Assembly (NCBI GenBank): GCA_026397715.1
Contig: JAPLUN010000441.1
Coordinates: 1 to 51,200 of the forward strand
Direction of reading: 5' to 3'
From: Verrucomicrobiota bacterium
GTDB lineage: Bacteria > Verrucomicrobiota > Verrucomicrobiia > Verrucomicrobiales > Verrucomicrobiaceae
Length of the DNA stretch: 51,200 nt
Below the pieces are notes generated by a model, which was not told the origin of the DNA, searched no databases, and was given only the letters and a program-made list of their open reading frames with translations. Within the stretch, counting starts at the first letter, position 1. Each line of letters begins with the position of its first letter. The position numbers and the translations under genes were made by a program. Positions 6,569 to 19,595 of the stretch are shown one piece after another.

Positions 6569-7894
6569 ATGAAATTTTACCCGTTATTGTTCACCCTCGC
6601 GGCTGCTGCGCTCACCTCGTGTGCACGTTATCAGCCTCGCCCCATCTCGGCGGAAGCCAGCTCTGCGGCGTTTGCAGGTCGTTCGTTCAATGATCCCGGC
6701 CTGCGTCAGTTTCTCACTGAGCAAAAAGCCGCCCAAGGAACCTGGGAGGTCAATCGCCTGGCCCTGGCCGCTGCGTATTTCCATCCCGATGTCACCCTCG
6801 CTCGCGCAGAAGCAGACGAAGTAATGGCCGCCATCAAAACCGCCAAGCAACGACCAAACCCCATCTTCACCTTCGGGCCTCAGTACGCCAGCTTTCACCG
6901 CAACACGATCACCCCCTGGTTCCTCGCCGGCAACGTCTTCTACCAAATCGAAACCGCTGGCAAACGCACACGCCGCACCGAGCAGGCACTGGCTGCCGCA
7001 GAAGCCGCCAGATGGCGCGTGTCGGCACGTGCCTGGTCCGCCCGCTCACGCGTTCGTGTGGCCATGCTGGAACTGCACAGCGCCCGCGAAAACATCCGCC
7101 TGCTGGAGACAGAGGGGAAACTTCATGATGAGGCGATCAAGAAACTCACCGCGCAAATGGAAGCGGGCGCCGTATCTCCCTTCGAACTCACCCAGGCACG
7201 GCTCGCCCTGAACCGCACGCGCCTCGCATTACAAGATGCGCAACGTCTCGCCGCCACCGGTGAGGCCAAACTCGCCGCCGCCGTGGGCGTGCCGCTGTCA
7301 GCCTTGAAAAGCATCTCACTCGATTTCTCATCACTCACGCGCCTGCCTGACCTGAGCAGCAGCAATAGCCGACGTCTTGCCCTGACTCAGCGCGCAGATC
7401 TGATGGCGCTCCTCGCAGATTATGCAGCCGCCGAATCCGCACTGCGCTTGGAATACGCCAAGCAGTACCCCGATGTCCGACTCGGACCCGGCTTCGATTA
7501 CAATCAAGGTCAAAACCGCTGGCAGCTCGGCGTGAGTTTGGAGCTTCCCATCAATGGCAATCGCGGCCCCATCGCGCAAGCGGAGGCCAAACGTAAATCT
7601 GCCGAAGCGCGCTTTCTCGCGCAGCAGGACTCGATTCAAGGTGAGCTAAACATTGCACTCGCGGCTTACACAGCCTCGCGAAGGAAAGCACAGACGGCTG
7701 CCACCCTCTCGCAGGATGCCGTGGCCGCTGCTGGCACCACGAAGCGCATGGTGGATGCCGGGGAGCTTTCACCCCTCGAACTCACCCGCCGTCAGATTGA
7801 AGCCAGCACCGCCAGTCTCGCCCGCATGGCCGCCGACATCGAGGCGCAGACCGCAGCCGGTGCCCTCGAAGATGCCATGCAGGCCCGCCTTTGA
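6569..7894 (+). CDS. TolC-family outer-membrane efflux lipoprotein (CzcC/CusC type)
   Basis: 441 residues. A lipoprotein signal ends in LTSC with lipidated Cys18. Two repeated outer-membrane-efflux-protein halves of long helices follow (for example LAAAYFHPDVTLARAEADEV and, later, LRLEYAKQYPDVRLGPGF). The repeated GVSLELPI-type strand is typical of the family. It forms the outer-membrane channel for the adaptor and RND pump encoded immediately downstream (13-nt gap to the adaptor), and starts 65 nt after the kinase gene. Confidence 0.9.
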   Translation: MKFYPLLFTLAAAALTSCARYQPRPISAEASSAAFAGRSFNDPGLRQFLTEQKAAQGTWEVNRLALAAAYFHPDVTLARAEADEVMAAIKTAKQRPNPIFTFGPQYASFHRNTITPWFLAGNVFYQIETAGKRTRRTEQALAAAEAARWRVSARAWSARSRVRVAMLELHSARENIRLLETEGKLHDEAIKKLTAQMEAGAVSPFELTQARLALNRTRLALQDAQRLAATGEAKLAAAVGVPLSALKSISLDFSSLTRLPDLSSSNSRRLALTQRADLMALLADYAAAESALRLEYAKQYPDVRLGPGFDYNQGQNRWQLGVSLELPINGNRGPIAQAEAKRKSAEARFLAQQDSIQGELNIALAAYTASRRKAQTAATLSQDAVAAAGTTKRMVDAGELSPLELTRRQIEASTASLARMAADIEAQTAAGALEDAMQARL

Positions 7895-7907
7895 TTTTTT
7901 CACACAC

Positions 7908-8888
7908 ATGAAAACATTCGCTCCCATTGCACTCCTGCTCGCAGTGAGTTCGCTCCACGCCGCCGACTCAGGCGGCTCTGCTCCCGCCGCCGTGACCAAA
8001 GAAGGTGACTTGGTCGTCATCACGCTCAAGCCCGAAGCCGAGCAGCGTCTGCGCTTGAAAGTGGTGCCAGTGGAAAAGCGCCGCGTCCCCGGCACCCGGC
8101 TGTTCTCAGGTGAAGTCGTTTATCCGCTGGGCGGAGAAGGCAGCGGTGTAGCACCCGTGCTCGGTGGCACGTTGGATGAGGTGCTTCGTCTCGCTGATTT
8201 GCAAGCCGCCGCAGATGGCCGCGTTCTTCAAGCCAAGGTGCAGATCGATGCCGCAAAGATCGCCGTCGAACGCGCGCAAAAAGTGCTCAATGCCGAAGCC
8301 GGCAGCGTGCGCTCCGTCGATGAAGCCAAGACCGCCCTTTCTCTCGCCGAAGGCGCGCTGGCCACCGCCAAAGCGCAGCGCGACATCCTCGGCGATCCCG
8401 TGGGCAAAACGAGCGGCGGCAAGCGCGCCTGGGTGCGTGTCGCCATCTACAGCGGCGAGATCAGCCTGCTCGACGCCAAAGCACCCGCAAGCATTCGCAC
8501 GCTCGGCTTTGATGCCAAAAGCCAAAGCGCAGCCCCCGTCGCCGGACCACCCACCGCCAATGCACTCACAAATACCGTGGACTGGTATTATCAACTGCCA
8601 ACGGACAACAAGTTGCGTGCAGGAGAACGCATCGCCGTTGAAATCCCCACGCCCGAAAGTCAGGAAGAACATCTCGTCATTCCATTCAATGCCGTGCTGC
8701 ATGACATCCACGGTGGCCAGTGGGTCTATGCCCAGACCGCTGAGCATGCCTACACCCGCAAGCGCATCCAGGTCTCCCGCCTCGCCGGTGCCGACGCTGT
8801 TCTGACCAGCGGTCCAGCCGCTGGCACCAAGATTGTGACCGACGGCTCCGCGGAGCTCTTCGGCACGGAATTCATGACCGGGAAATAA
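7908..8888 (+). CDS. Periplasmic adaptor (membrane fusion) protein of RND efflux
   Basis: 326 residues from ATG 7908. The signal peptide is [19 protein letters not shown]. Next come a beta-barrel/lipoyl-like part, a helical hairpin ([17 protein letters not shown], then [15 protein letters not shown]) and a C-terminal membrane-proximal domain ([20 protein letters not shown]). The last motif, a variant of the VP.sAv....G..vfv signature, is typical of HlyD/CzcB-type adaptors. It lacks an extended N-terminal metal-binding domain. Four nt separate it from the pump gene, indicating one transcript. Confidence 0.88.
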
Positions 8889-8892
8889 CGCC

Positions 8893-11800
8893 ATGCTGAA
8901 TGCCATTGTCTCCTGGGCGCTGAACATGCGCGTGCTCGTTGTTGCTGGCGCACTGGCGCTGCTGCTCGTCGGCATCAATGCCACAAAGAATGCACCTCTG
9001 GATGTGTTTCCAGAATTCGCACCGCCCCTGGTCGAAGTTCAAACAGAAGCCCCGGGCCTCTCCACGGAGGAAGTCGATGCCCTCGTTACCGTCCCTCTGG
9101 AAAACTCGCTCAATGGCCTCCCGTTCCTCAAGACCCTGCGCTCAAAGTCAGTGCTCGGTTTGTCATCCGTCGTGATGATCTTCGACACCGGCACGGACAT
9201 CCTCAAAGCACGCCAGCTCGTGCAGGAACGCTTGAACCTCGCGCAGAATCGTCTGCCTGCCGTGGTCAAGCCACCGGTCCTCATGTCGCCGTATTCATCC
9301 TTGAGCCGGGTGTTAAAAGTGGGCCTCACGTCAAAGACATTGTCGCAGATGGAGCTCAGCGAATTGTCGCGCTGGACCATCCGCCCTCGCCTCATGTCCG
9401 TACGTGGCGTCGCCAATGTCGCCATCTGGGGTCAGCGCGACAAACAGTTCCAAGTCCTCGTCGATCCCCAGCGCCTCCGCGCCGCCGGTGTGACGCTGGA
9501 TGCCATTACCAAAGCCGCTGGCGATGCCGCAGTGATCAGCGCCGGCGGTTTCATCGACACACCCAATCAGCGCCTCAGCGTGGCCCAGCTTGCCTTGATC
9601 GTCACGCCGGAGGATCTCGCACGCACCGTGGTGGAGTTTCGCAACGGCGCACCCATCCGCCTTGGCGATGTCGCGGAGGTGAAGATCGGCAATCCCGCAC
9701 CCATTGGCGATGGCGTCATCAATGATGGTCCCGGCATCTTGCTCATCGTCGAAAAGCAGCCCTGGGGAAACACCCTTGATGTCACACATGGCGTCGAAAA
9801 AATGCTGGAAGAACTAAAGCCCGCTTTGCCCGGCGTGGACGTGGACAGCACCATCTTCCGCCCCGCCACCTTCATCCAGCTCTCCATGGATCACCTCACC
9901 GAGGCCCTCTGGCTCGGCTGCCTGCTCGTCGTCGTCGTGCTCGCGTTGTTCCTTGGCGACTGGCGCACCACCGTCATCAGCCTCACGGCCATCCCGCTCT
10001 CGCTCGCCATTGCCTTGCTCTTCCTCGCCTGGCGTGGTGAAACGATCAACACCATGATCCTCGCAGGTCTCATCATCGCCCTCGGAGAAGTCGTGGATGA
10101 TGCCATCATCGATGTGGAAAACATCCTCCGCCGTCTGCGGCAAAACGCCACCCTCGCCACACCCAAACCAAAACTGCGCGTCGTGCTCGATGCCTCGCTG
10201 GAGGTCCGCAGCGCGGTCGTCTATGCCAGCGTCATCATCGTGCTCGTGTTCATCCCGGTGTTCTTCCTGCCAGGTCTCGCAGGCACCTTTTTCCGGCCTC
10301 TCGCCCTCTCCTACATACTCGCCATCAGCGCCTCCCTCGTCGTGGCGCTCACGGTCACACCTGCACTGAGTTTGATGCTGCTGAATGTCAAAACAGGACA
10401 GCATCGGGATGCCTTCGTCGCACGCGCGCTCAAGGCCGCCTACCGCGCTATCTTGCCAATGTTTGCACGCAGCCCCTGGCTCGCGCTGCTCATTCTCGCC
10501 GGCGCCTTTGCCTTCACCGGCTTCATCTGGCACACACAGCTTAAAGAAGAGTTTCTGCCCAACTTCAAAGAGCGCGACTTCCTCATGCACTGGCTGGAAA
10601 AACCGAACACCTCAGTCGAGGCGAGCACCCGCATCACCATCGCCGCCAGCAAAGATCTCCGCGCCATTCCAGGCGTGCGGAATCTCGGCGCACACATCGG
10701 TCGTGCCGAAGTCGCCGATGAAGTCGTCGGCCCCGACTTCACCGAACTCTGGATCAGCCTCGACCCCAACGTCGATTACGACAAAACAATTCACAAAGCC
10801 CAGTCCGTTGTCGATGGCTATCCCGGCCTCACCCGCGACCTCCTCACCTTCTTGCGCGAACGCGTGAAGGAAGTCCTCACCGGTGCCAGCGCCAGCATCG
10901 TCGTGCGCATCTTCGGCTCCGATCTCGATGTCCTGCGTGATCGCGCTGCAGCCGTCGGTGCCACCTTGAAAGATGTTCCCGGCGTGAGCGCCCTGAAGGT
11001 CGAATCCCTCACCCTCGTGCCCCAGATCACCGTCAAGCTGCGCCCCGAATCCGCCGCCCTGCACGGCCTCACCGCGGGCAAAGTACGCCAGGCCGTCACC
11101 ACCCTCATCAGCGGCCGGAAAGTCGGCGAAGTGTACCAAGATCAGCGCGTGCATGACGTCACCGTCTGGAGCCTGCCTGCCGTGCGTGCCGACTACACCA
11201 CGCTGCGCGAACTCCTCATCGAAACACCCGCCGGCGGCCATGTACGCCTCGCCGATGTCGCCGACCTCGCCATCGTCCCCACCCCAAACGCCATCAAACG
11301 CGAAGGCGCTTCACGCCGCATCGACGTCACCTGCAACGTCACCGGCCGCGCTCTGGGAGAAGTCGCAAAGGAGATCGAAGAGCGCGTGAATAAAGTCCAG
11401 TTCCCCGCAGGCTATCATCCTGAAATCCTCGGTGAATGGGCAGAGCGCCAGTCCGCGCAAAGCCGCCTCGGCTGGCTCGCCCTCGCATCCTTCGCAGGCA
11501 TCCTCGCCCTTCTCCTCGCCGATTTCCAATCACCCCGTCTGGTCCTGCTCATCGCACTCACCCTGCCCTTCGCCCTCATTGGCGGCGTCATGGCCGCATG
11601 GCTCGGCGGCGGCGTGCTGTCACTCGGTTCACTCGTCGGCTTCGTCACAGTCCTCGGCATCGCTGCGCGCAATGGCATCCTGCTCGTCAGCCACTACCGC
11701 CATTTGCAGACCGATGAAGCCCGCCCCTTCGGCCTCGATCTCGTACTCGAAGGCAGCGCCGAGCGCCTCATCCCCATCCTCATGACCGCCTCCACCGCCG

Positions 11801-11970
11801 CCCTCGCCCTCCTCCCCCTCGTTCTCAAAGGCAACGTCCCCGGCAATGAAATCGAACGCCCCATGGCCCTCGTCATCCTCGGCGGCCTCGTCACCAGCAC
11901 CCTCCTCAATCTCTTTCTCCTCCCAGCCTTGTATGCCCGGTTCGGCAGAGTCATCCCCAAGGGAATCTGA
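8893..11970 (+). CDS. Heavy-metal efflux RND pump (CzcA/CusA family)
   Basis: 1025 residues, normal for the family. TM1 is at about residues 11-29, then the first porter half ([22 protein letters not shown], typical of HME-RND pumps), TM2-6 at about 340-500, TM7, a second porter half (about 550-850) and TM8-12. The TM4 signature is [15 protein letters not shown] with Asp402 and Glu409, matching the CusA-style proton relay; the extra Asp of CzcA is not there, but Glu399 sits one turn earlier. It exports metal cations with the preceding adaptor and TolC-type partner. Metal specificity cannot be read from the sequence; Cus-like (Cu/Ag) or Czc-like (Zn/Co/Cd) are both possible. Confidence 0.92.
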
Positions 11971-12013: not shown

Positions 12014-12046
12014 GCGTGGATAGCTCAGTGGTAGAGCGGCTCGTTT
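12014..12046 (+). pseudogene. 5' fragment of tRNA-Val
   Basis: The 33 nt from gcgtggatagctcag to ctcgttt are identical to the first 33 nt of the intact tRNA-Val at 19521 (acceptor 5' strand, D-arm, anticodon stem 5' strand and start of the loop). After that similarity fades (tttccacgga against tttacaccga) and the T-arm is absent. It is the left boundary of the lower-GC operon region, with the intact tRNA at the right, which suggests site-specific insertion or duplication at this tRNA. Confidence 0.8.
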
Positions 12047-12158
12047 CCACGGAAAGACCGAATTGCAGACATGAATTTCGATCTCGTTTTCTCACTTGCC
12101 CAAAGTGCGTTTACAGCGACTCACAATGATCTAAACAGCCCTCAACGTCACAAATTGT

Positions 12159-15100
12159 TTAGTGATCTGTTTTCGCAGCAAGCAATGCCGACAAGCGATT
12201 AATAAACTTCTCGTCCGGAATCCCGCCAGGAGCTGAGGATGCGTTGAGCAAAAGAAAACTCTCAGGCGGGGATGACTCATCAACGTTCGTTGCATCGATG
12301 AGAATAGGCATGACAAAAGGCTCACCTGAATTCGACAATTTCTCCGCTCGTTCGGCAGCCCATCTCCACTCACGACGATAGAATCCTTCTCTTTGCCGTG
12401 CTGTATTTTCCGAAAATACGGCTAGAAAATATGAACAGGCCATAATGTTTTTCCGGGCAGTTTGTTCAAAATCATCGCCAGGCACCAGATGTCGGTCAAT
12501 ATCCCTCCATATGGTGATGTTTGCCGCCTTGAGCGCGGCGCTCAAGGCGGTAACCGCTTGGAGATCCCCTCCCGAGTAACTGACGTAAACAGCACCTTCA
12601 GGCATGACGTCAACAGCCTCACTTCGGAAAGATTCAGGTTGCGGAAATGCATCTTCAGACGGCCGCCTATTCCACCTTACAGCTGGAAAACGTAAAACAT
12701 GCCTTAGGGAGATGTTGACACCTTCCAGCTGGAAATGTGGCCGAAGGAATAAATTCGCATAGATATACCCTGCATTTTCAGAAGCTTCTTTCAATTCGAT
12801 CCATGCGGCTGCCAGCGGCTTCTCCGCCTTGAAGGAGTAACTGGCATCTGAATCCGTGACAATATATTGCTGAATCCAGTTATTAAGCCAGAGTTCCATT
12901 TGGTCGTGCTCCCTAAAGGAACCGATCTTATCACGGACAATACATTTGAGAAAGTGAGCGAATCGGCAGCAGGCAAAGAGGTAGGGCAGGCGTGCCGCTA
13001 AATTGGCGTTGGCGGTGGCATCCTTGTCATCAAACCTGGCAGGCTTATTCAGTGACTGCGCCCCGATGAAGGCTGCATAATCGGTATTCTTCCAGTGAGA
13101 CAAAGGCATGAATCCCAAGCGAGACAGTTCAAGTTCACGTCTGTCGGTGATGCCAATTTCTGTGGGGCACTTCATGTCGATGCCACCATCGTCAGTCGGA
13201 AAAACATGCACCGGTAGGTTTTCGACCAAGCCACCACTTTCCACCCCTCGGATCTGGGCGCACCAGCCGCTCTGTTTGAAGGCACGGGTGATGTTTGTTG
13301 CCATGGCATAAGCGGAGTTCACCCACACATAGTTGGTGTGAGTTGCATCATCCGCCTCTTCCTCAAAGGCAAAAGCAGCCACCGGATTGTTTCGGGTATT
13401 ATAGGGAAGGCGGGCAAGGAAGCGTGGCATGGCAAGACCAACAAATCGGGAGTCTTCGATCTCTCGCAGACTGCGCCATGCGGCGTATTCGGCAGCGTCA
13501 AAAATTTTGGCAAGATCCCGTTTATCTCCTAGCTGCTGCCAGCTTTCCATTTGGAGCAGACTAGGGCCGGCTGCCGAAATGAACGGGCAGTGAGCCGTGG
13601 CGGCAATTCTGGCGATGTCGCGCAGGCACTCGACATCAGGAGCACTATGATCAAATTCATAGTCGCCCACCAGACATCCATAAGGCTCGCCACCTGGAGT
13701 GCCGAACTCATACTCATAGATCTTGTTGAAGAACGGGCTCTGGTCCCAGCGCTCCCCCGGGTAGCTTCTTAATGTGCGATGAACTTCCCTCTTGGAAATG
13801 TTCATTACTTTGATTTTTAGCTGGGTGCTGGTCTCTGTATTGAAGACCAGATAATGAAGTCCACGCCACGCCCCTTCCAGCTTCGTGAACTCGGCATGAT
13901 GCATGATCTTGTTCAACTGTAAGGATAGTTTATGATCAATCTGGGCGATAATGTCCTGAATGTATTGGAAAGCAGTCAGCATCACAGTCGGACTTTCGAG
14001 CACGTTTGCTGCGAGAGCTTGGAGGGCGGACTTCACTGCCTCAAAGCGTGCGTCATTCTTGGCGTCAAAACAGCTTTGTATAAGCCTGTCGAACTCGTCG
14101 ATTTCGACGGCTGATCTGTGCGGCGAGGCTAGAGTGTCTGTTGCGGGGACATTTAGGTCTCGAATAGGTTCACCTGAATCGGATAAAGATTTGACCGAGG
14201 GAAAAGGATCGGGCTCCTTTTTTAAAAGCACACTCTTCATGAGCTCCTCGTCATGGAGGAATTTTTCGACCAAAACCTCCGCCTGGGGCCGACCATCCAT
14301 ATAACTCAAGAGGTTAGACAGCTCAGTGCGGTAATTGAGCGGGCCACTGAGGGATGCTACTCTCTTCGCAATAGCATCAGGAGAAAAGTCGTTCATGCTT
14401 TCGAAGGATATATCCACCGAAAGAGGGCCTCCTTCTTCCGTGAGCACATTCGGAACACTGAATGCGGCACGGGGTTTGATGGCCTTCATTCGATCTTCGA
14501 AGATGTCCATGTCAAATTCTATGAATTTGCGATCATTCACTATTGGCAGAGGCCTTTCAGGATCTTGCCTGCCCGAAAGATCAGTCAAGACAGCCACAAC
14601 AAAAGGCAGCTCGACCTTCTTTTGGGCACCATTCACATCCAGTTCGTATTCGATGTGGACGCGTGGAGGACGATTGCGGTCTATAAAGCGGGCGCCTCCC
14701 TGAACGCTGTTTTTGTGGGCCACTGGCAGTTGAGTTGGGTTTTCCACCGTTGGCGAAACCGCTGTCAGTCCCATTCGATCTAGCAGAGCCTTGGCTAGCT
14801 TGGCAAAAGGCAGGTCATGCCCGCCTTTGGTATTAACATTCCATTCTCTTTCCGCAGCACGTGGATCGTTCAAGAGCGCCGTAAAAAATCCGCCTTGTCC
14901 GGAACGCTTTTCAAAATACTGACTGAGCAGTCGGAGTGTCTGTTCGGAACAATCAAGTCCTCCCAGATCCAGCAGCCGCTCACGAATCCCTGGTAGGAAT
15001 TCATATTCGCTCTGGCTTGCGAAGGGCTGCATCCCCCTTCGGCCGGGAAGACGATAAAAGAGGCCGCTGAGAAAAAGCTCGGCAAGCTGGGCCGGTGCGG

Positions 15101-16259
15101 CATCCGGCACAAGAACGCGCTGAATCACCCTCATCACCGGCAGGTGCAGGGGTGCCGAGGCAAGATGGCGTGCCAGCTTGCGCGCTCCGTCCGAGGAAAA
15201 ACGCTCAAAGCGCTCGAATATCTTGTCCACTTCGTCTGCAGGCAGCGCCATGGGATCAAACGTCGTTTGCCCTGCTGCCAGCTTCGGAGTGGCCACAGCA
15301 AATTGTGACCGTGAGCCCTGGTAGCAAACGACACCTTCCGCCCCCATTCCCGCAAGAAAACGGGAGTAACTTCGCAGGCTTGCTGGGTCCAATGTCACGA
15401 CGGTTACTGGAGACCACGCGTGCCCCTTCGAGACCCCACCAGCGGCCTGAAAGTTTGTGAGTGACACGTTCCTGAGCGCCGAGCGTTTCCACATCGCCAC
15501 GGGCAGCATTTGCAGAAGGGTGGTGGGATGCTTGGCAGCCCACTGCGCAATGAGGTCTGGTATATCTGCTGAAAGCCAGCCAAAACTCATGGCATCCGAG
15601 ATCACAAGGACGAGCCTGCCGGCATTGCCCTGAACGGGCCGGTCAAGTGAAACGGGCCGACCTCCAGACGTTTGCATCTGCATTTTGCCTTCCACCCAGC
15701 TCAAATGATACGTACGAATGTTGCGTGGAGAGCAGGCCCTGATCAGCAGTTGGCGAAACTCCCACCGCCCCATGGCCGGACGCTTGATGATCTGCCAAAG
15801 GCCAGTCTCTGCGATGGCCGAAATGGTGGCTTCTTCGTCGAATTCCATCGCTTGCTGAGCATGAGCGCGGCGCTGCCTGAGTGGCTTCAAAGCGCGGTCC
15901 ATTTGCACGCCACAGCTGATGGGTGCTGCAGTCGGCAATGACACAAGCCTGCCACGCAGCTTTGGCCCATCCGCACCGCCTAGGGCATGCACCGGTGTTT
16001 CAGGTTCTTTTTGTTTTAGGGGTTCGGGCGCGGATTTGACCGGTGCAGGAGAAGAGGGGGAAGGACTTTCCAACGGCGGGGTTTTCGGTTCGGTGGGAGC
16101 GGCCGGGCGCATTGGCTTCTCAGGTTCCTGCAGCACCCTCGCCTCCCCAGCCACAAAGCCATGCGCTGCGAGCCATGCCGCATCGCAGAAGTCCTCGGCG
16201 CTGAACTCTACATTATGGAGTTTCAGTTCACCAAGGGCCTGATTGAGCGTGAACCTCAT
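12159..16259 (-). CDS. vWA/SAV_2336-like - TssB - TssC - TIR fusion protein
   Basis: 1366 residues from ATG 16259 (a TTG one codon earlier is less likely). An N-terminal helical segment (1-35) and Pro-rich linker (44-90) lead into a SAV_2336/vWA-like region to about 480 (RRRAHAQQAMEFDEEAT, GRLVLVISDA). Residues 516-680 are a complete TssB sheath protein (RNRPPRVHIEYELD, KKVELPFVVAVLTDLSG, FESMNDFSPDAIA). Residues 715-1195 are a complete TssC (EGAWRGLHYLVFNTET, GDYEFDH, RGVESGGLVENLP, CPTEIGITDRRE, RPHFQLEGVNISLR). Residues 1221-1360 are a TIR domain (GAVYVSYSGGDLQA, conserved Glu1297 in YRREW). Its start overlaps the ATPase stop (TGATG). TssB and TssC normally form the T6SS contractile sheath as separate proteins; here both are fused to a likely NAD-cleaving or signalling domain. 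Role in conflict is inferred. Confidence 0.9.
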   Translation of the reverse strand: MRFTLNQALGELKLHNVEFSAEDFCDAAWLAAHGFVAGEARVLQEPEKPMRPAAPTEPKTPPLESPSPSSPAPVKSAPEPLKQKEPETPVHALGGADGPKLRGRLVSLPTAAPISCGVQMDRALKPLRQRRAHAQQAMEFDEEATISAIAETGLWQIIKRPAMGRWEFRQLLIRACSPRNIRTYHLSWVEGKMQMQTSGGRPVSLDRPVQGNAGRLVLVISDAMSFGWLSADIPDLIAQWAAKHPTTLLQMLPVAMWKRSALRNVSLTNFQAAGGVSKGHAWSPVTVVTLDPASLRSYSRFLAGMGAEGVVCYQGSRSQFAVATPKLAAGQTTFDPMALPADEVDKIFERFERFSSDGARKLARHLASAPLHLPVMRVIQRVLVPDAAPAQLAELFLSGLFYRLPGRRGMQPFASQSEYEFLPGIRERLLDLGGLDCSEQTLRLLSQYFEKRSGQGGFFTALLNDPRAAEREWNVNTKGGHDLPFAKLAKALLDRMGLTAVSPTVENPTQLPVAHKNSVQGGARFIDRNRPPRVHIEYELDVNGAQKKVELPFVVAVLTDLSGRQDPERPLPIVNDRKFIEFDMDIFEDRMKAIKPRAAFSVPNVLTEEGGPLSVDISFESMNDFSPDAIAKRVASLSGPLNYRTELSNLLSYMDGRPQAEVLVEKFLHDEELMKSVLLKKEPDPFPSVKSLSDSGEPIRDLNVPATDTLASPHRSAVEIDEFDRLIQSCFDAKNDARFEAVKSALQALAANVLESPTVMLTAFQYIQDIIAQIDHKLSLQLNKIMHHAEFTKLEGAWRGLHYLVFNTETSTQLKIKVMNISKREVHRTLRSYPGERWDQSPFFNKIYEYEFGTPGGEPYGCLVGDYEFDHSAPDVECLRDIARIAATAHCPFISAAGPSLLQMESWQQLGDKRDLAKIFDAAEYAAWRSLREIEDSRFVGLAMPRFLARLPYNTRNNPVAAFAFEEEADDATHTNYVWVNSAYAMATNITRAFKQSGWCAQIRGVESGGLVENLPVHVFPTDDGGIDMKCPTEIGITDRRELELSRLGFMPLSHWKNTDYAAFIGAQSLNKPARFDDKDATANANLAARLPYLFACCRFAHFLKCIVRDKIGSFREHDQMELWLNNWIQQYIVTDSDASYSFKAEKPLAAAWIELKEASENAGYIYANLFLRPHFQLEGVNISLRHVLRFPAVRWNRRPSEDAFPQPESFRSEAVDVMPEGAVYVSYSGGDLQAVTALSAALKAANITIWRDIDRHLVPGDDFEQTARKNIMACSYFLAVFSENTARQREGFYRREWRWAAERAEKLSNSGEPFVMPILIDATNVDESSPPESFLLLNASSAPGGIPDEKFINRLSALLAAKTDH

Positions 16260-17335
16260 CAAAGGACAGGGGCTTGTGGCGTCTCGCTCAGTGAACGGAA
16301 GATGGCATCCTTGATGCCCAGATGATCCAGTGGACTGACTCCGGCCCCAGAACGCGCGAGGAAGATGGCGTTAAGCAGTTGATCAATCGCCAAAGTGGCA
16401 TCGGACTGCGCCCGCTTTTCATTAAACATTCGCAGAAGTTCCAGCACAGTCGGATCATCGCCAGCAGCAATGCCGAGGTGTTGCCTGATAATCGACTGCA
16501 ACTGCCCCGCACGCCTTTCCCAAGGAATTGACAATTGCAGGCAACGCCGCAAAAAGGCCGGTGGAAAGTCGCGATCACCGTTGCTCGTCATGATAATAAG
16601 CGGAAAGTCGTCGCAACGAATGCGGCCATCCGATGGCACAGCGACTTTTGATAGAGCGGGATCAGCAGTGTTCACCATGATCTGGTCTGACTTCTGAGCA
16701 GCGGGTAAACGCGTCATTTCAGGAATGGCAAAACTTCCCTCCTCGAGGACGTGCAAAAGATCGCTGGGCAAATCGGCGTCACTTTTGTCGATTTCATCAA
16801 TCAACAATACTCGGGGATGGTATCCTGCCGTGCCTGTAGGAAGGAGAGCCGTGCCCAGCGGCCCCAGCGTGAAGTAGTCGCCAAAATCGAGACTGCTATT
16901 ACCCATGCCTTCCTTGGCCAAGGAAGCATCCTGAAGGCGGGCAAGCGCATCATAGTGGTAGAGGGCATCTTTCAAGGTCGAGCGGGAAGTGACACCCCAG
17001 CGCAAGACATTGCCCAGCCCAAGTTGCCAGGCCACGGAGTAGGCAATAGTGGTTTTGCCGACTCCTGCCTGACCCGTGATCAGCAGAGGCCGGCGGAGCA
17101 CCAACGCAGCATTTATCAGCAGCGCCTCCTGGGGATCCGCAAGATAGGTTCGTCCTTTCGTTGCCTGATCAGGTTGCATGGGTCTTGCCGTGGTAATATT
17201 AAATGCACCGCCCGACGGTTTGGGCGCAAACCGTCGCCAAGGAGGGGATTCATGGGCTAGTTGCAACGGCGACGGATCGGGATGATCACCTTTGAACTCA
17301 TCTCGGTAAATTTGAATGGGAGCGGAAGTGGTCAT
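16259..17335 (-). CDS. MoxR-type AAA+ ATPase
   Basis: 358 residues. Walker A is GQAGVGKT (88-95), Walker B VLLIDE (176-181), sensor 1 Asn252 in IIMTSNGDRDFP, and a candidate arginine finger is at 263-264 (FLRRC). A Pro-rich N-terminus precedes the core. MoxR ATPases typically work with vWA-domain partners to remodel complexes. Here the partner is the next gene, started by a TGATG overlap, and the upstream partner is a DUF4062/VMAP-C-like protein. It could take the place of ClpV for the fused sheath, although it is not a ClpV homologue. Base composition is lower in GC than the flanking genes. Confidence 0.92.
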   Translation of the reverse strand: MTTSAPIQIYRDEFKGDHPDPSPLQLAHESPPWRRFAPKPSGGAFNITTARPMQPDQATKGRTYLADPQEALLINAALVLRRPLLITGQAGVGKTTIAYSVAWQLGLGNVLRWGVTSRSTLKDALYHYDALARLQDASLAKEGMGNSSLDFGDYFTLGPLGTALLPTGTAGYHPRVLLIDEIDKSDADLPSDLLHVLEEGSFAIPEMTRLPAAQKSDQIMVNTADPALSKVAVPSDGRIRCDDFPLIIMTSNGDRDFPPAFLRRCLQLSIPWERRAGQLQSIIRQHLGIAAGDDPTVLELLRMFNEKRAQSDATLAIDQLLNAIFLARSGAGVSPLDHLGIKDAIFRSLSETPQAPVL

Positions 17336-17366
17336 GGGAAAGTGACAAGGGTTTGACGATCGCGAG

Positions 17367-19100
17367 TTAACTCAGGGCGTGTAAGAGATGGGTGTGGTGG
17401 GCAAGGTCAAAAGCGTCTTCGGCGAACTCGAACTCAGGCCAATCAGGCGGATCGTATAGTACCGCTAGATCACGCCAGGGAGAGCCTTTCGACGAACCGC
17501 TTTTCGTCTCAAAGATCATCTTCGGCAATTCTGCCAGGGAGTGATCCTCGAGAAACTCTAGGCAGACCTCGGCCAGATCAGGCGGATGAGGATTCCTCAT
17601 CCAAAATCCCAAGCTGGCGCTTTCAGCGACCTGATGAAATGCTTCATGCACGCCATGTGTCGCGTTGGGAATAGCAAAGAATGCTCCGAACTTTATCACA
17701 TCGGTCCTGAATGAAGCGTTCGGCCCCAAATGACATGCAACCTGAGCTCGCGAAAAAGGATCTGCCGCCGCCTTCGGACGTGGCCTGCAAACATCCCGGT
17801 CCAACAGTCTGAGCACCGATGGCCAGGGCAGCAGCGAAATTTCCTCATCGCCCGGTTTGCTGCAAAAGAGATACTCCCATGGTTGATTGAGTTCGTGGCG
17901 GCAGACAAAGATTTCCAACCGCTCGAAGGGAATGTATTTGAATGGTTTTGCTGAACGCACCCGACGGGCAAGCCGCGTCGGAGCCTCCTCGAAAGTCAAT
18001 GCAGGCGTGTCACAAATGGGAATAGGCTGGCGGTATCTGCCCCACCGAAGATAGGCTTCAACTCGCGCCACAGCCCCAGACTCCTCAGCCCCGTGCTTCC
18101 ATGCGATCTCCAACGAGGGACGAGGCAAGCCTCCCGATTCCAGAAGGTCAAACGTCTCCGCGCATCGTCCCATGACGGCAGCAAGAGAGAGTTGGACAGC
18201 GTTCAATACGCTCGCCAACCAGGCATCCAATGAGGCAGCAAGTGCATGCAAACCAAGCGACCTGCTGCGAATCTCACATGCTTTGACAAGTCCCAGAAGG
18301 ACATGGGGCGACTTTCTTTCCGCGAGGATGTCGAGAAGCGCTAGGTCACCCACAGACTTGTCGCTAACATGTTCAGGGCATGCGCTGGTAATCTGCACGT
18401 AAGCTGCAAGCAAAAAACGTTCATCCAAGAGCTGCGCCGCTTCGGTTCTCAGGATGTGACGAAGTTCATCCACTTTCCCAGGGCCAAAGCGACTCTGGAG
18501 TTCATGGACCGCGTAGGTATTTAAAGCCAGTGGCTGGCGAAAATCACCAAAAAACAAACCATAGAGTTCGGACTTCTCTTTAAACGAAGATGGATATATT
18601 TTTCGATTGAGTCGGCTCAACCGTGAAAGGTGCTTCTTTGCCAGTTCATCTTCGCCAATTTGGGGCTCAAATAGAGGCCAGTCACGGTCCATTCCGCATG
18701 CGATGGTTGGATTGCCATCGCGAATGGGTTGGCTCGCATGATAAACATAAATCGATTTATTGTGATATATGGCCAAAAACAGCTCCCACTGTGTATAAGA
18801 GATTTCGACGGTGGCAAAGTCCTCCACCTCCTTCATGGTGGTCAAATAGTCGGGGAAGTTGCGCAAAAATGCTGCAACCGACCGCGGATCAGCCATTGCA
18901 CCGACACCTTCACCGATGAGGTGAATGACCACATCACATGAACGAATGTAATCACTAAGCTTTTGAATCGTGTCCTCTGGGACTTGGCGGAATTCCTCCT
19001 GGATTTTGACCTCCCAGTCAGCTCTTCGAAAAATCCTGGCTATCTCCGTTCGGTAGGCACCAAATTCTGCGGTAACGCATGATATAAAGACGCGGGGCAT
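17367..19100 (-). CDS. DUF4062 protein with VMAP-C-like C-terminus
   Basis: 577 residues. Residues 1-195 match DUF4062, a TIR-like Rossmann domain: PRVFISCVTAEFGAYR, SDYIRSCDVVIHLIGEG and ISYTQWELFLA. A helical middle (200-320) follows. Residues about 340-565 resemble VMAP-C, the C-terminal domain of vWA-MoxR-associated proteins: FERLEIFVCRHELNQPWE, LLPWPSVLRLLDRD and a final DLAVLYDPPDWPEF. In the published class of MoxR-vWA-VMAP ternary systems, VMAP links a sensor or effector to the ATPase/vWA pair. This is the first gene of the operon, 31 nt before the ATPase. The DUF4062 call is strong; VMAP-C is by remembered pattern and less sure. Confidence 0.78.
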   Translation of the reverse strand: MPRVFISCVTAEFGAYRTEIARIFRRADWEVKIQEEFRQVPEDTIQKLSDYIRSCDVVIHLIGEGVGAMADPRSVAAFLRNFPDYLTTMKEVEDFATVEISYTQWELFLAIYHNKSIYVYHASQPIRDGNPTIACGMDRDWPLFEPQIGEDELAKKHLSRLSRLNRKIYPSSFKEKSELYGLFFGDFRQPLALNTYAVHELQSRFGPGKVDELRHILRTEAAQLLDERFLLAAYVQITSACPEHVSDKSVGDLALLDILAERKSPHVLLGLVKACEIRSRSLGLHALAASLDAWLASVLNAVQLSLAAVMGRCAETFDLLESGGLPRPSLEIAWKHGAEESGAVARVEAYLRWGRYRQPIPICDTPALTFEEAPTRLARRVRSAKPFKYIPFERLEIFVCRHELNQPWEYLFCSKPGDEEISLLPWPSVLRLLDRDVCRPRPKAAADPFSRAQVACHLGPNASFRTDVIKFGAFFAIPNATHGVHEAFHQVAESASLGFWMRNPHPPDLAEVCLEFLEDHSLAELPKMIFETKSGSSKGSPWRDLAVLYDPPDWPEFEFAEDAFDLAHHTHLLHALS

Positions 19101-19520
19101 GATAAAATATCCTCGCTCGCAAGATGACGGTTCACGATTGTTTTTGACAATTGCAAGGCATGATCCCCATGTCCAGTCCTTTCAACAAAATGCGTAAAAG
19201 CGACTAAACTAGCCAACTAGTACAAAGGCACGGCCGCACTTGTCGGGTGAAAATGAGAACTCCGAACAGGCCTTCGGCTCGTTTCAGCAGATCAGTCAGG
19301 TTTCCTTCTTTTCAGAGACTCTGTAAACACATTGAAGCTTCCTCATGCTCCTGCCTTCAAATGCTTCGCGTCTGGGTATCACGATTCCCTCAGCGCCGGA
19401 GGATCCACCGATTTGAGCACGATTCGGCATTAATTGGATGCATCATCAGATCATGTTCAGCATCGACAAGACAATTGACTTGGTTGAAATCATGCTTGAT
19501 TGAGAGTCCCGCATTGATCA
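19101..19520. other. 420-bp gap upstream of the DUF4062/ATPase/sheath operon
   Basis: No convincing gene. It must hold the promoter of the minus-strand operon, but I see no good -35/-10 pair. A small inverted repeat (attgt at 19137-19141, acaat at 19147-19151) lies about 40 nt upstream of the first ATG and could be an operator. A GAGG about 10 nt upstream of the ATG at 19100 is a weak ribosome site. The AT content is higher than in flanking genes. Confidence 0.4.
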
Positions 19521-19595
19521 GCGTGGATAGCTCAGTGGTAGAGCGGCTCGTTTACACCGAGTTGGTCGGGGGTTCGAATCCCTCTCCGCGCACCA
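19521..19595 (+). tRNA. tRNA-Val (anticodon TAC), CCA encoded
   Basis: It folds as a full cloverleaf: acceptor gcgtgga/tccgcgc, D-arm gctc/gagc, anticodon stem gctcg/cgagt with loop tttacac (anticodon TAC, reading GUA), T-arm ggggg/ccctc with loop ttcgaat, discriminator A and an encoded CCA. The 75-nt length includes CCA. Two partial copies lie upstream at 4641 and 12014, so this gene looks like an insertion or duplication hot spot. Confidence 0.95.

Follow-up and report, generated by a model that had tools for sequence, protein, structure and literature searches.

MoxR-vWA ternary systems are widespread and are predicted to be immune systems. In the VMAP systems, three genes follow one another in the order VMAP, MoxR, vWA, and the MoxR ATPase carries an N-terminal PsWRxa motif (main text of Kaur, Burroughs, Iyer and Aravind, 2020, PMC7159879). 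According to the same text, many VMAPs carry an N-terminal enzyme domain such as TIR, most (not all) of the vWA domains have both metal-site Asp residues, and varied effectors lie behind the vWA domain. A further kind, the MoxR-vWA-iSTAND systems, is described in the main text of PMC12839542. Ordered assemblies are also reported to switch on NAD+-degrading enzymes (NADases; NAD+ is nicotinamide adenine dinucleotide). TIR-STING (PMC9402430) and Cat1 (PMC12162218) form filaments that switch on TIR NADases, and the Swarozyc-portal complex is another ordered assembly that switches on an NADase (PMC13174449, a 2026 preprint). The preprint reports DUF4062 proteins, with the antiphage system Swarozyc, as a TIR-like NADase family. 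Here we describe a three-gene operon from a Verrucomicrobiota bacterium of the family Verrucomicrobiaceae (GenBank assembly GCA_026397715.1, contig JAPLUN010000441.1, positions 1 to 51,200; this whole stretch of 51,200 nucleotides is "the window"), in which genes of the VMAP type are joined to the contractile-sheath pair TssB-TssC of the type VI secretion system (T6SS) and to a TIR domain.

We propose that the operon is a mobile anti-phage MoxR-vWA ternary system and that its third protein would form an orphan sheath-like polymer that packs TIR domains and depletes NAD+; we put the probability of this reading at roughly 0.48. In the proposed mechanism, the gene 1 protein would hold the complex off and sense infection. 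MoxR, through the vWA-family region, would then change the conformation of the complex and release the fusion. Because each chain already holds a TssB-TssC pair, assembly would need no partner gene, and the chains could self-assemble without an Hcp tube or a baseplate. The ordered array would pack the C-terminal TIR domains and switch them on, perhaps together with the DUF4062 domain of gene 1. NAD+ would fall, and phage growth would stop. More tentatively still, we suggest that the sheath was turned at least twice into an intracellular, MoxR-gated, tube-less immune polymer, that the assembled or contracted state would be the on-switch of the TIR and DUF4062 NADases, and that the whole would be a tRNA-targeted cassette.

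The operon occupies positions 12159-19100, and its three genes are co-directed on the minus strand (coordinates checked against the list of open reading frames, ORFs). A 31-nt gap separates gene 1 from gene 2, and genes 2 and 3 overlap by one base (TGATG). An earlier note on this DNA had given the same order and coordinates, which are correct, and the domain matches support its description, in which an operon of the MoxR-vWA-VMAP type is linked with a T6SS sheath and a TIR domain. Gene 2 (16259..17335, minus strand) encodes a MoxR AAA+ ATPase of 358 aa. AAA_5 matches at 7.1e-7, AAA and other AAA-family models also match (Pfam/NCBIfam), and Walker A, Walker B, the SN motif and RRC are all present. 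The N-terminal sequence PPWRRF (residues 31-36) is a PsWRxa-type motif. Of the N-terminal WxhapG motif, only EFKG (residues 13-16) fits the end, and the W is absent.

The order VMAP, MoxR, vWA, with all genes co-directed, agrees with that in the main text of PMC7159879. A clear system of this kind occurs in another genus of the same family (G217, locus L025 2370-13262), which has VMAP-C (2.1e-25), a MoxR with PPWRDF and a vWA-family protein in the same order. Its effector is Roc-COR, EAD1 and trypsin in place of the sheath. (Two further ORFs, trypsin-like by eye, adjoin the G217 system.) Another protein, P0032, has the same N-terminus as gene 3, followed by TIRs and no sheath. As the effectors of P0032 and G217 differ from that of the window, the effector slot is swapped: sheath-TIR in the window and in P0001 (a relative described below), TIRs in P0032, and Roc-COR/EAD1/trypsin in G217. 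The longest contig listed is 174,194 bases for both P0001 and the MoxR P0078 (92% identical), and 31,456 bases for both P0032 and the MoxR P0079; because of these matching sizes, the members of each pair probably share contigs. We read the window operon as a divergent VMAP ternary member with a new effector because the gene order, PPWRRF, the TIR-like N-terminus and the effector swap agree and because the family contains the clear G217 system.

Gene 3 (12159..16259, minus strand) starts with ATG and encodes a SAV_2336/vWA-TssB-TssC-TIR fusion of 1366 aa, as seen from Pfam, NCBIfam and PDB matches. The N-terminal component (residues 1-505, 14745..16259, minus strand; NCBIfam and alignment) matches SAV_2336_NTERM (NF041121) with an E of 8.6e-66 and 222.7 bits, against a cut-off of 200. 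No vWA model matched gene 3 in the profile scans. Taking the SAV_2336 N-terminal family as a marker of the vWA component is our own inference. Thus, where the earlier note had labelled this region vWA/SAV_2336, the SAV_2336 half holds, and the vWA half is taken from the SAV_2336 family and from relatives. The N-terminus of gene 3 also matches 52 plasmid records, all at less than 60% identity; none of the 20 listed is annotated as T6SS.

The sheath of gene 3 consists of a TssB/VipA domain (residues 525-682, 14214..14687) and a TssC/VipB domain (residues 716-1195, 12675..14114), both on the minus strand and both recognised by Pfam and by PDB match (VipA/TssB 3.3e-46; VipB/TssC 1.5e-131; VipB_2 1.4e-36). 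Solved sheath chains align with the TssC part over almost its whole length (best: 5n8n_B, 9.6e-196). At E up to 1, gene 3 is matched by 18 distinct PDB sequences, each of them in the TssB or TssC part. Near-invariant TssC columns were defined as those at least 95% conserved among 24 canonical TssCs. The window TssC keeps 156 of these 171 columns, while the canonical TssCs keep 89-100% (leave-one-out), so the window sheath looks able to assemble.

This sheath pair is an orphan in the host genome (6.76 Mb, 93% complete). The only TssC there is the one within the fusion, and TssF, TssK and Hcp gave no match in the genome; each of these searches matched in an E. coli control. In the 51-kb window, 13 T6SS queries (tblastn) match only TssB and TssC, and the TssL, TssM and ClpV queries from a genome of the same genus (G199) found no match. 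The full architecture is found in 1 of 288 genomes of the phylum, the window's own (at most two candidate places were scored per genome), and 14 others have a TssC match with no vWA part. Within the family, it is found in 1 of 68 genomes, and just one of the other 67, G199, has sheath genes. The G199 genes are a separate tssB (66% to the fusion) and tssC (71%), in a cluster that we read as VgrG, TssK, TssL, TssM, TagF, TssA, Hcp, TssE, TssF, TssG and ClpV. (These names come from reading ORFs without a model scan; several find counterparts in other sheath loci by tblastn.)

The likeness to the G199 genes raises the possibility that the fusion serves a secretion machine as an atypical T6SS component or regulator. 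Also, single-chain TssB-TssC genes without a vWA part, taken as a control, adjoin TssF, TssG and VgrG at both of the loci examined (L064 in G500 and L065 in G437, two genomes from the order of Rubrivivax). Nevertheless, this explanation is very improbable. Membership of the operon in a T6SS was rejected because Hcp, TssF and TssK have no match in a 93%-complete genome, and the 13 queries match only TssB and TssC both in the window and in 41 kb of a Rubrivivax locus, described below. A role as a T6SS component is unlikely for the host genome unless a T6SS cluster lies in the missing 7%. Loci of this kind do not always sit inside complete T6SS clusters, which the earlier note had named as what would speak against its idea: the host lacks matches to TssF, TssK and Hcp, and the Rubrivivax genome lacks a match to TssF.

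The nearest relative of the fusion is P0001, a cluster of 5 sequences on 4 contigs that has the same architecture as gene 3, with 67% identity over 99% of the length. Because the architecture is repeated in P0001, the fusion is not a one-off assembly accident, and we rejected a one-off chimeric assembly. The window TssC is 72% identical to that of G199 versus 68% to that of P0001, which led us to suspect separate captures for the window and P0001. This was rejected as well: the TssC tree joins the two as sisters (100/99), with G199 next (100/100).

Kinship between the fusion's sheath and the T6SS sheath of the genus would also fit a decoy. As a dominant-negative mimic, the fused sheath would be mistaken for, or co-assemble with, the contractile tail sheath of a phage or an injection machine and so jam it; the ternary core would release it, and the TIR would report or execute afterwards. 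In the view of Kaur et al. (2020, PMC7159879, main text), many effectors found in these systems derive from cellular proteins, have lost activity and work as decoys or in a dominant-negative way. An archaeal virus reportedly requires a MoxR-vWA pair for its tail (PMC7824862, main text). However, the near-invariant positions of canonical TssCs are retained in the window TssC, and in three arrangements the sheath is accompanied by a TIR or TIR-like module, although a pure decoy needs none. Phage sheaths are distant relatives, which we also counted against a decoy. The drift of the P0001 TssC (see below) was not counted against it. On balance, we consider a decoy unlikely and favour the TIR-packing polymer.

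The sheath may have been captured more than once. The fusion has 68 protein matches (scoring in the protein searches was limited to the ~8,000 candidates with the most words in common). Among the matches listed, 63 have TssC and 32 have more than 80 residues before TssB; 29 of those 32 share one N-terminal family, in which P0002 matches the other 28. The long members of this family have a vWA-like region by eye, and the extension common to the long and short forms aligns at 99.7% probability. (Two other arrangements may be mentioned. P0022, with 1489 aa, has a vWA-like N-terminus and an FGS domain (Pfam) before TssB-TssC. P0029, with 1554 aa, has the layout TIR-FHA-TssB-TssC-TIR, the first TIR by alignment, and no recognised vWA region.) For this 29-protein group, one genomic context was read, the single confirmed locus among 58 candidate stretches. 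In this locus (L022), from a Rubrivivax metagenome-assembled genome, a TIR protein (TIR_2 6e-8) is followed by MoxR, a vWA-like ORF and extension-TssB-TssC. The separate vWA-like ORF aligns to the long forms at 99.5%. The Rubrivivax MoxR has no N-terminal motif and is a weak match to bpMoxR. Across 41 kb of the 47.7-kb contig, the 13 T6SS proteins found only TssB and TssC (tblastn), and TssF has no match in the genome, for which completeness is not given. The extension has relatives in 17 of 398 genomes of the phylum to which Rubrivivax belongs, the Rubrivivax genome included. Searching ~1.5 kb on each side of 19 loci in the other extension-bearing genomes gave no T6SS match; two of the 19 were read by eye and have a WD40-like end (L069) and an FGS-like end (L070). 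The Pseudomonadota-type N-terminus had no match in 72,556 plasmid records.

In a clade test that included the window, P0001, 13 of the 29 linked proteins and 24 canonical TssCs (L016 was dropped as a long branch), one clade for the 15 vWA-type sheath fusions was rejected (p = 1.5e-9, approximately unbiased test). A single origin of all vWA-type sheath fusions was rejected on this ground; later exchange of sheath genes is possible. As one clade is rejected, the sheath would, most simply, have been captured by MoxR-vWA systems at least twice. Elsewhere in the tree, P0035-P0064 form one TssC branch with P0033. The earlier note had looked to the same gene order in other genomes. We find that the combination of MoxR, a vWA-type region and the sheath recurs, in the window and in Rubrivivax, but that the place of the TIR varies and there is no fixed order.

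The TIR domain of gene 3 (residues 1222-1366, 12162..12596, minus strand; Pfam and alignment) matches TIR_2 at 3.3e-14 (Pfam). Glu1297 aligns to a Glu of the solved TIR 3h16 (E 0.0045), which we take to be the catalytic Glu, and it is kept in 12 of 12 aligned rows. By alignment, the window TIR keeps this Glu and the usual motifs, and we predict that it is an NADase effector. Among the relatives of this TIR in the phylum, 7 of the 8 examined are C-terminal, on proteins with a SIR2-looking N-terminal half by eye (L017, L018, L019, L020, L026, L028 and L029); these are possible double NADases.

Gene 1 (17367..19100, minus strand, 577 aa; ORF, Pfam and alignment) may encode a second such enzyme. 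It begins with DUF4062, of the TIR-like NADase family, and continues with a helical middle and a VMAP-C-like C-terminus. The DUF4062/TIR-like domain spans about residues 1-180 (18561..19100, minus strand; Pfam and alignment), with the Pfam match at 3-71 (E 2.3e-7, over the cut-off). DUF4062 matched in 7 of 7 sequences at E up to 1, the window protein among them, and Glu106 is invariant in the 7 aligned sequences, again including the window's. This makes Glu106 a candidate catalytic Glu of DUF4062. The AlphaFold model of gene 1 is weak overall (pLDDT, the predicted local distance difference test, of 49; 7 sequences). Its best Foldseek matches (2.6e-3 and up, with nothing under E 0.001) are mostly TIR and nucleoside-hydrolase folds, with the position within the model not stated. 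On plasmids, the first third of gene 1 matches 4 records; one of these regions, on a Methylobacterium plasmid (NZ_AP024150.1 16854-17372), lies under a gene annotated fxsT and is 36% identical to the DUF4062 end.

The earlier note had cast gene 1 as a sensor or adaptor. We change this part of its interpretation, whereas the joining of the operon and the setting outside a T6SS stand: given the report on DUF4062 proteins (PMC13174449) and the Foldseek matches, a role for DUF4062 as a second TIR-like NADase is more likely than one in sensing or adapting alone. One could go further and suppose that DUF4062 is the main enzyme and that the fusion is a recruiting scaffold, its TIR an adaptor that binds DUF4062. 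The reported activity of DUF4062 proteins as TIR-like NADases, the invariant Glu106, the partial erosion of the P0001 TIR and the presence of the recognised Rubrivivax TIR in the first gene would all fit. Against this, the window TIR keeps its Glu and the usual motifs, and the use of a TIR as an adaptor for another TIR is hypothetical for these proteins, so we regard this alternative as doubtful and retain the fusion TIR as the predicted effector.

Several observations weigh against the polymer that we propose, and the main doubts concern the incomplete vWA region of the window, the drift of both TssC and TIR in P0001, and the decoy explanation. First, 21 residues that are present in P0001 and P0032, and that include the first metal-site motif (by eye), are absent in frame from the window (between residues 166 and 167, 15761..15762, minus strand; alignment). 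P0001 and P0032 have the first metal-site strand with Glu for Asp; the SDAMS motif, which we read as the second metal-site Asp, is present in the window. The window copy may be impaired because of this loss, and an assembly error behind the missing segment is possible. The AlphaFold model of the region has low confidence (pLDDT 35, 4 sequences). Second, P0001 looks drifted. At 142 of the 171 near-invariant columns (83%), its TssC falls short of the canonical range, which slightly lowers our confidence in the polymer. Its TIR has lost some of the usual motif (by eye) and is 60% identical to the window's, versus 79-81% for the vWA region and the C-extension. Third, the VMAP-C-like region of gene 1 (residues 347-552, 17445..18062, minus strand; Pfam) is borderline. 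It scores 23.7 bits in the protein scan (E 5.4e-5) against a cut-off of 27, and 27.3 bits when the whole gene 1 frame is scored in the genome. It is found in the window's gene 1 and in none of 6 relatives, and hhalign gave no profile alignment between gene 1 and the VMAP of G217. Of the DUF4062/VMAP-C ends assigned to gene 1 at the outset, then, DUF4062 is secure and VMAP-C is borderline. Fourth, no protein besides that of the window and P0001 was seen to have the full architecture. The vWA-like region of the 29-protein family matches the window type with a profile E of 1e-3 and a probability of 22%, and the Rubrivivax vWA-like ORF matches no Pfam family. Finally, PADLOC has no model for gene 1 and gives the other operon genes TIR- or AAA-level matches only. 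(It also gave no match at 1e-10 for 7 other ORFs of the window.)

The missing vWA segment could also mean that the system is switched off here and that the sheath-TIR fusion is on its way out, and the presence of the fusion in 1 of 68 family genomes is consistent with this. However, none of the three frames is interrupted, the 1366 residues of gene 3 run without a stop, and MoxR, TIR and DUF4062 retain their motif positions. The conservation of the window sheath is also near normal. A decaying copy therefore seems improbable to us.

The operon lies in an island at a tRNA gene. An intact tRNA-Val(tac) (19521..19595, plus strand) begins with 33 nt (19521-19553, the right direct repeat) that recur exactly at 12014..12046 (plus strand, spacing 7507). 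The left direct repeat is a copy of the tRNA-Val 5' half and marks the island end; none of 100 shuffles had two matches. Between the repeats are 7.5 kb (12047..19520) of low GC content, with the operon as cargo and as the only recognised genes. The GC scan gave 0.53 for the island, against a range of 0.577-0.611 for background windows of equal length (116 of them, overlapping). No integrase-like ORF was seen in the island (ORF list by eye, with no model scan).

In one congener, G325, the left flank is collinear with the window (88.6% over 7,360 columns) up to position 12053 and then runs straight into an intact tRNA-Val. Judging from this alignment, the G325 site is the empty counterpart of the island on its left side. 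On the 3' side of the tRNA-Val, G325 encodes GajA and GajB of the Gabija system (2.3e-202 and 5.3e-179; L059 8357-12893), and the tRNA-Val site is likely a defence hot spot. Across seven congener stretches, the tRNA is intact in three (G317, G304 and G325), none of these three has the operon, and the left flank reaches the tRNA only in G325. The variable locus near defence genes that had been expected is thus what we find, with a tRNA-Val island and Gabija at the site in one congener. In G317, a second copy of the tRNA-Val 3' half lies ~265 bp past the intact tRNA (L057 12802-13199) and is probably another insertion scar. Directly left of the island, the window carries genes for an outer-membrane efflux protein and an AcrB-type RND (resistance-nodulation-division) pump (6569-11970), which are collinear in G325.

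Among the papers listed by full-text searches of the open-access literature (supplements and subscription papers lay outside the scope), none was seen to link a T6SS sheath with MoxR-vWA systems or with TIR domains. The main text of PMC7159879, its supplement being outside the scope, has no mention of sheath, T6SS, TssB or DUF4062, and its one "type VI" is in a reference title. Sheath, type VI and TssC are absent from the main texts of PMC10907252 and PMC8195603, as are sheath-related terms from that of PMC12839542, and the main texts of PMC7824862 and PMC9503650 have sheath or T6SS terms in unrelated uses only. If our reading is true, then this would be, as far as the papers listed reach, the first time that a secretion sheath is seen to serve within the cell as a scaffold for immunity. 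Because the structure of the sheath is known, such an effector would also give a direct handle: assembly would be visible by electron microscopy and the NADase could be assayed, so the claim that ternary systems gate higher-order assemblies becomes testable.

How does the operon compare with the known systems? Like a T6SS, it has TssB and TssC, nearest to those of the G199 cluster; unlike a T6SS, it comes without a match to Hcp, TssF or TssK in the host, and it places the pair in a single chain with vWA-family and TIR ends. With the VMAP ternary systems (MoxR-vWA subsystem 1), it shares the gene order, the PsWRxa-type motif, a TIR-like domain on gene 1 and a variable effector. It differs from them in its effector, a full TssB-TssC pair plus a TIR, in its borderline VMAP-C and in the absence of the first vWA metal-site strand. 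The Rubrivivax type looks like the iSTAND ternary systems (MoxR-vWA subsystem 2, as described in the main text of PMC7159879), given a TIR at the start of gene 1 and a MoxR without the N-terminal motif; an FGS domain in P0022 (Pfam) and an FGS-like end in G884 (by eye) also recall these systems. In contrast, its MoxR is a weak bpMoxR match and a sheath effector is not described in that main text.

Gene 1 resembles Swarozyc in its DUF4062 start with an invariant Glu. However, in Swarozyc the DUF4062 protein carries an auxiliary domain that binds the portal (PMC13174449), whereas gene 1 belongs to a three-gene operon and has DUF4062 at one end of a VMAP-like protein. Finally, as in the TIR filament effectors (TIR-STING, TIR-SAVED and Cat1), the window TIR is predicted to be switched on by an ordered polymer. 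Those effectors build their polymers from nucleotide-binding domains, while the polymer module in the window would be a contractile-sheath pair under the control of an ATPase.

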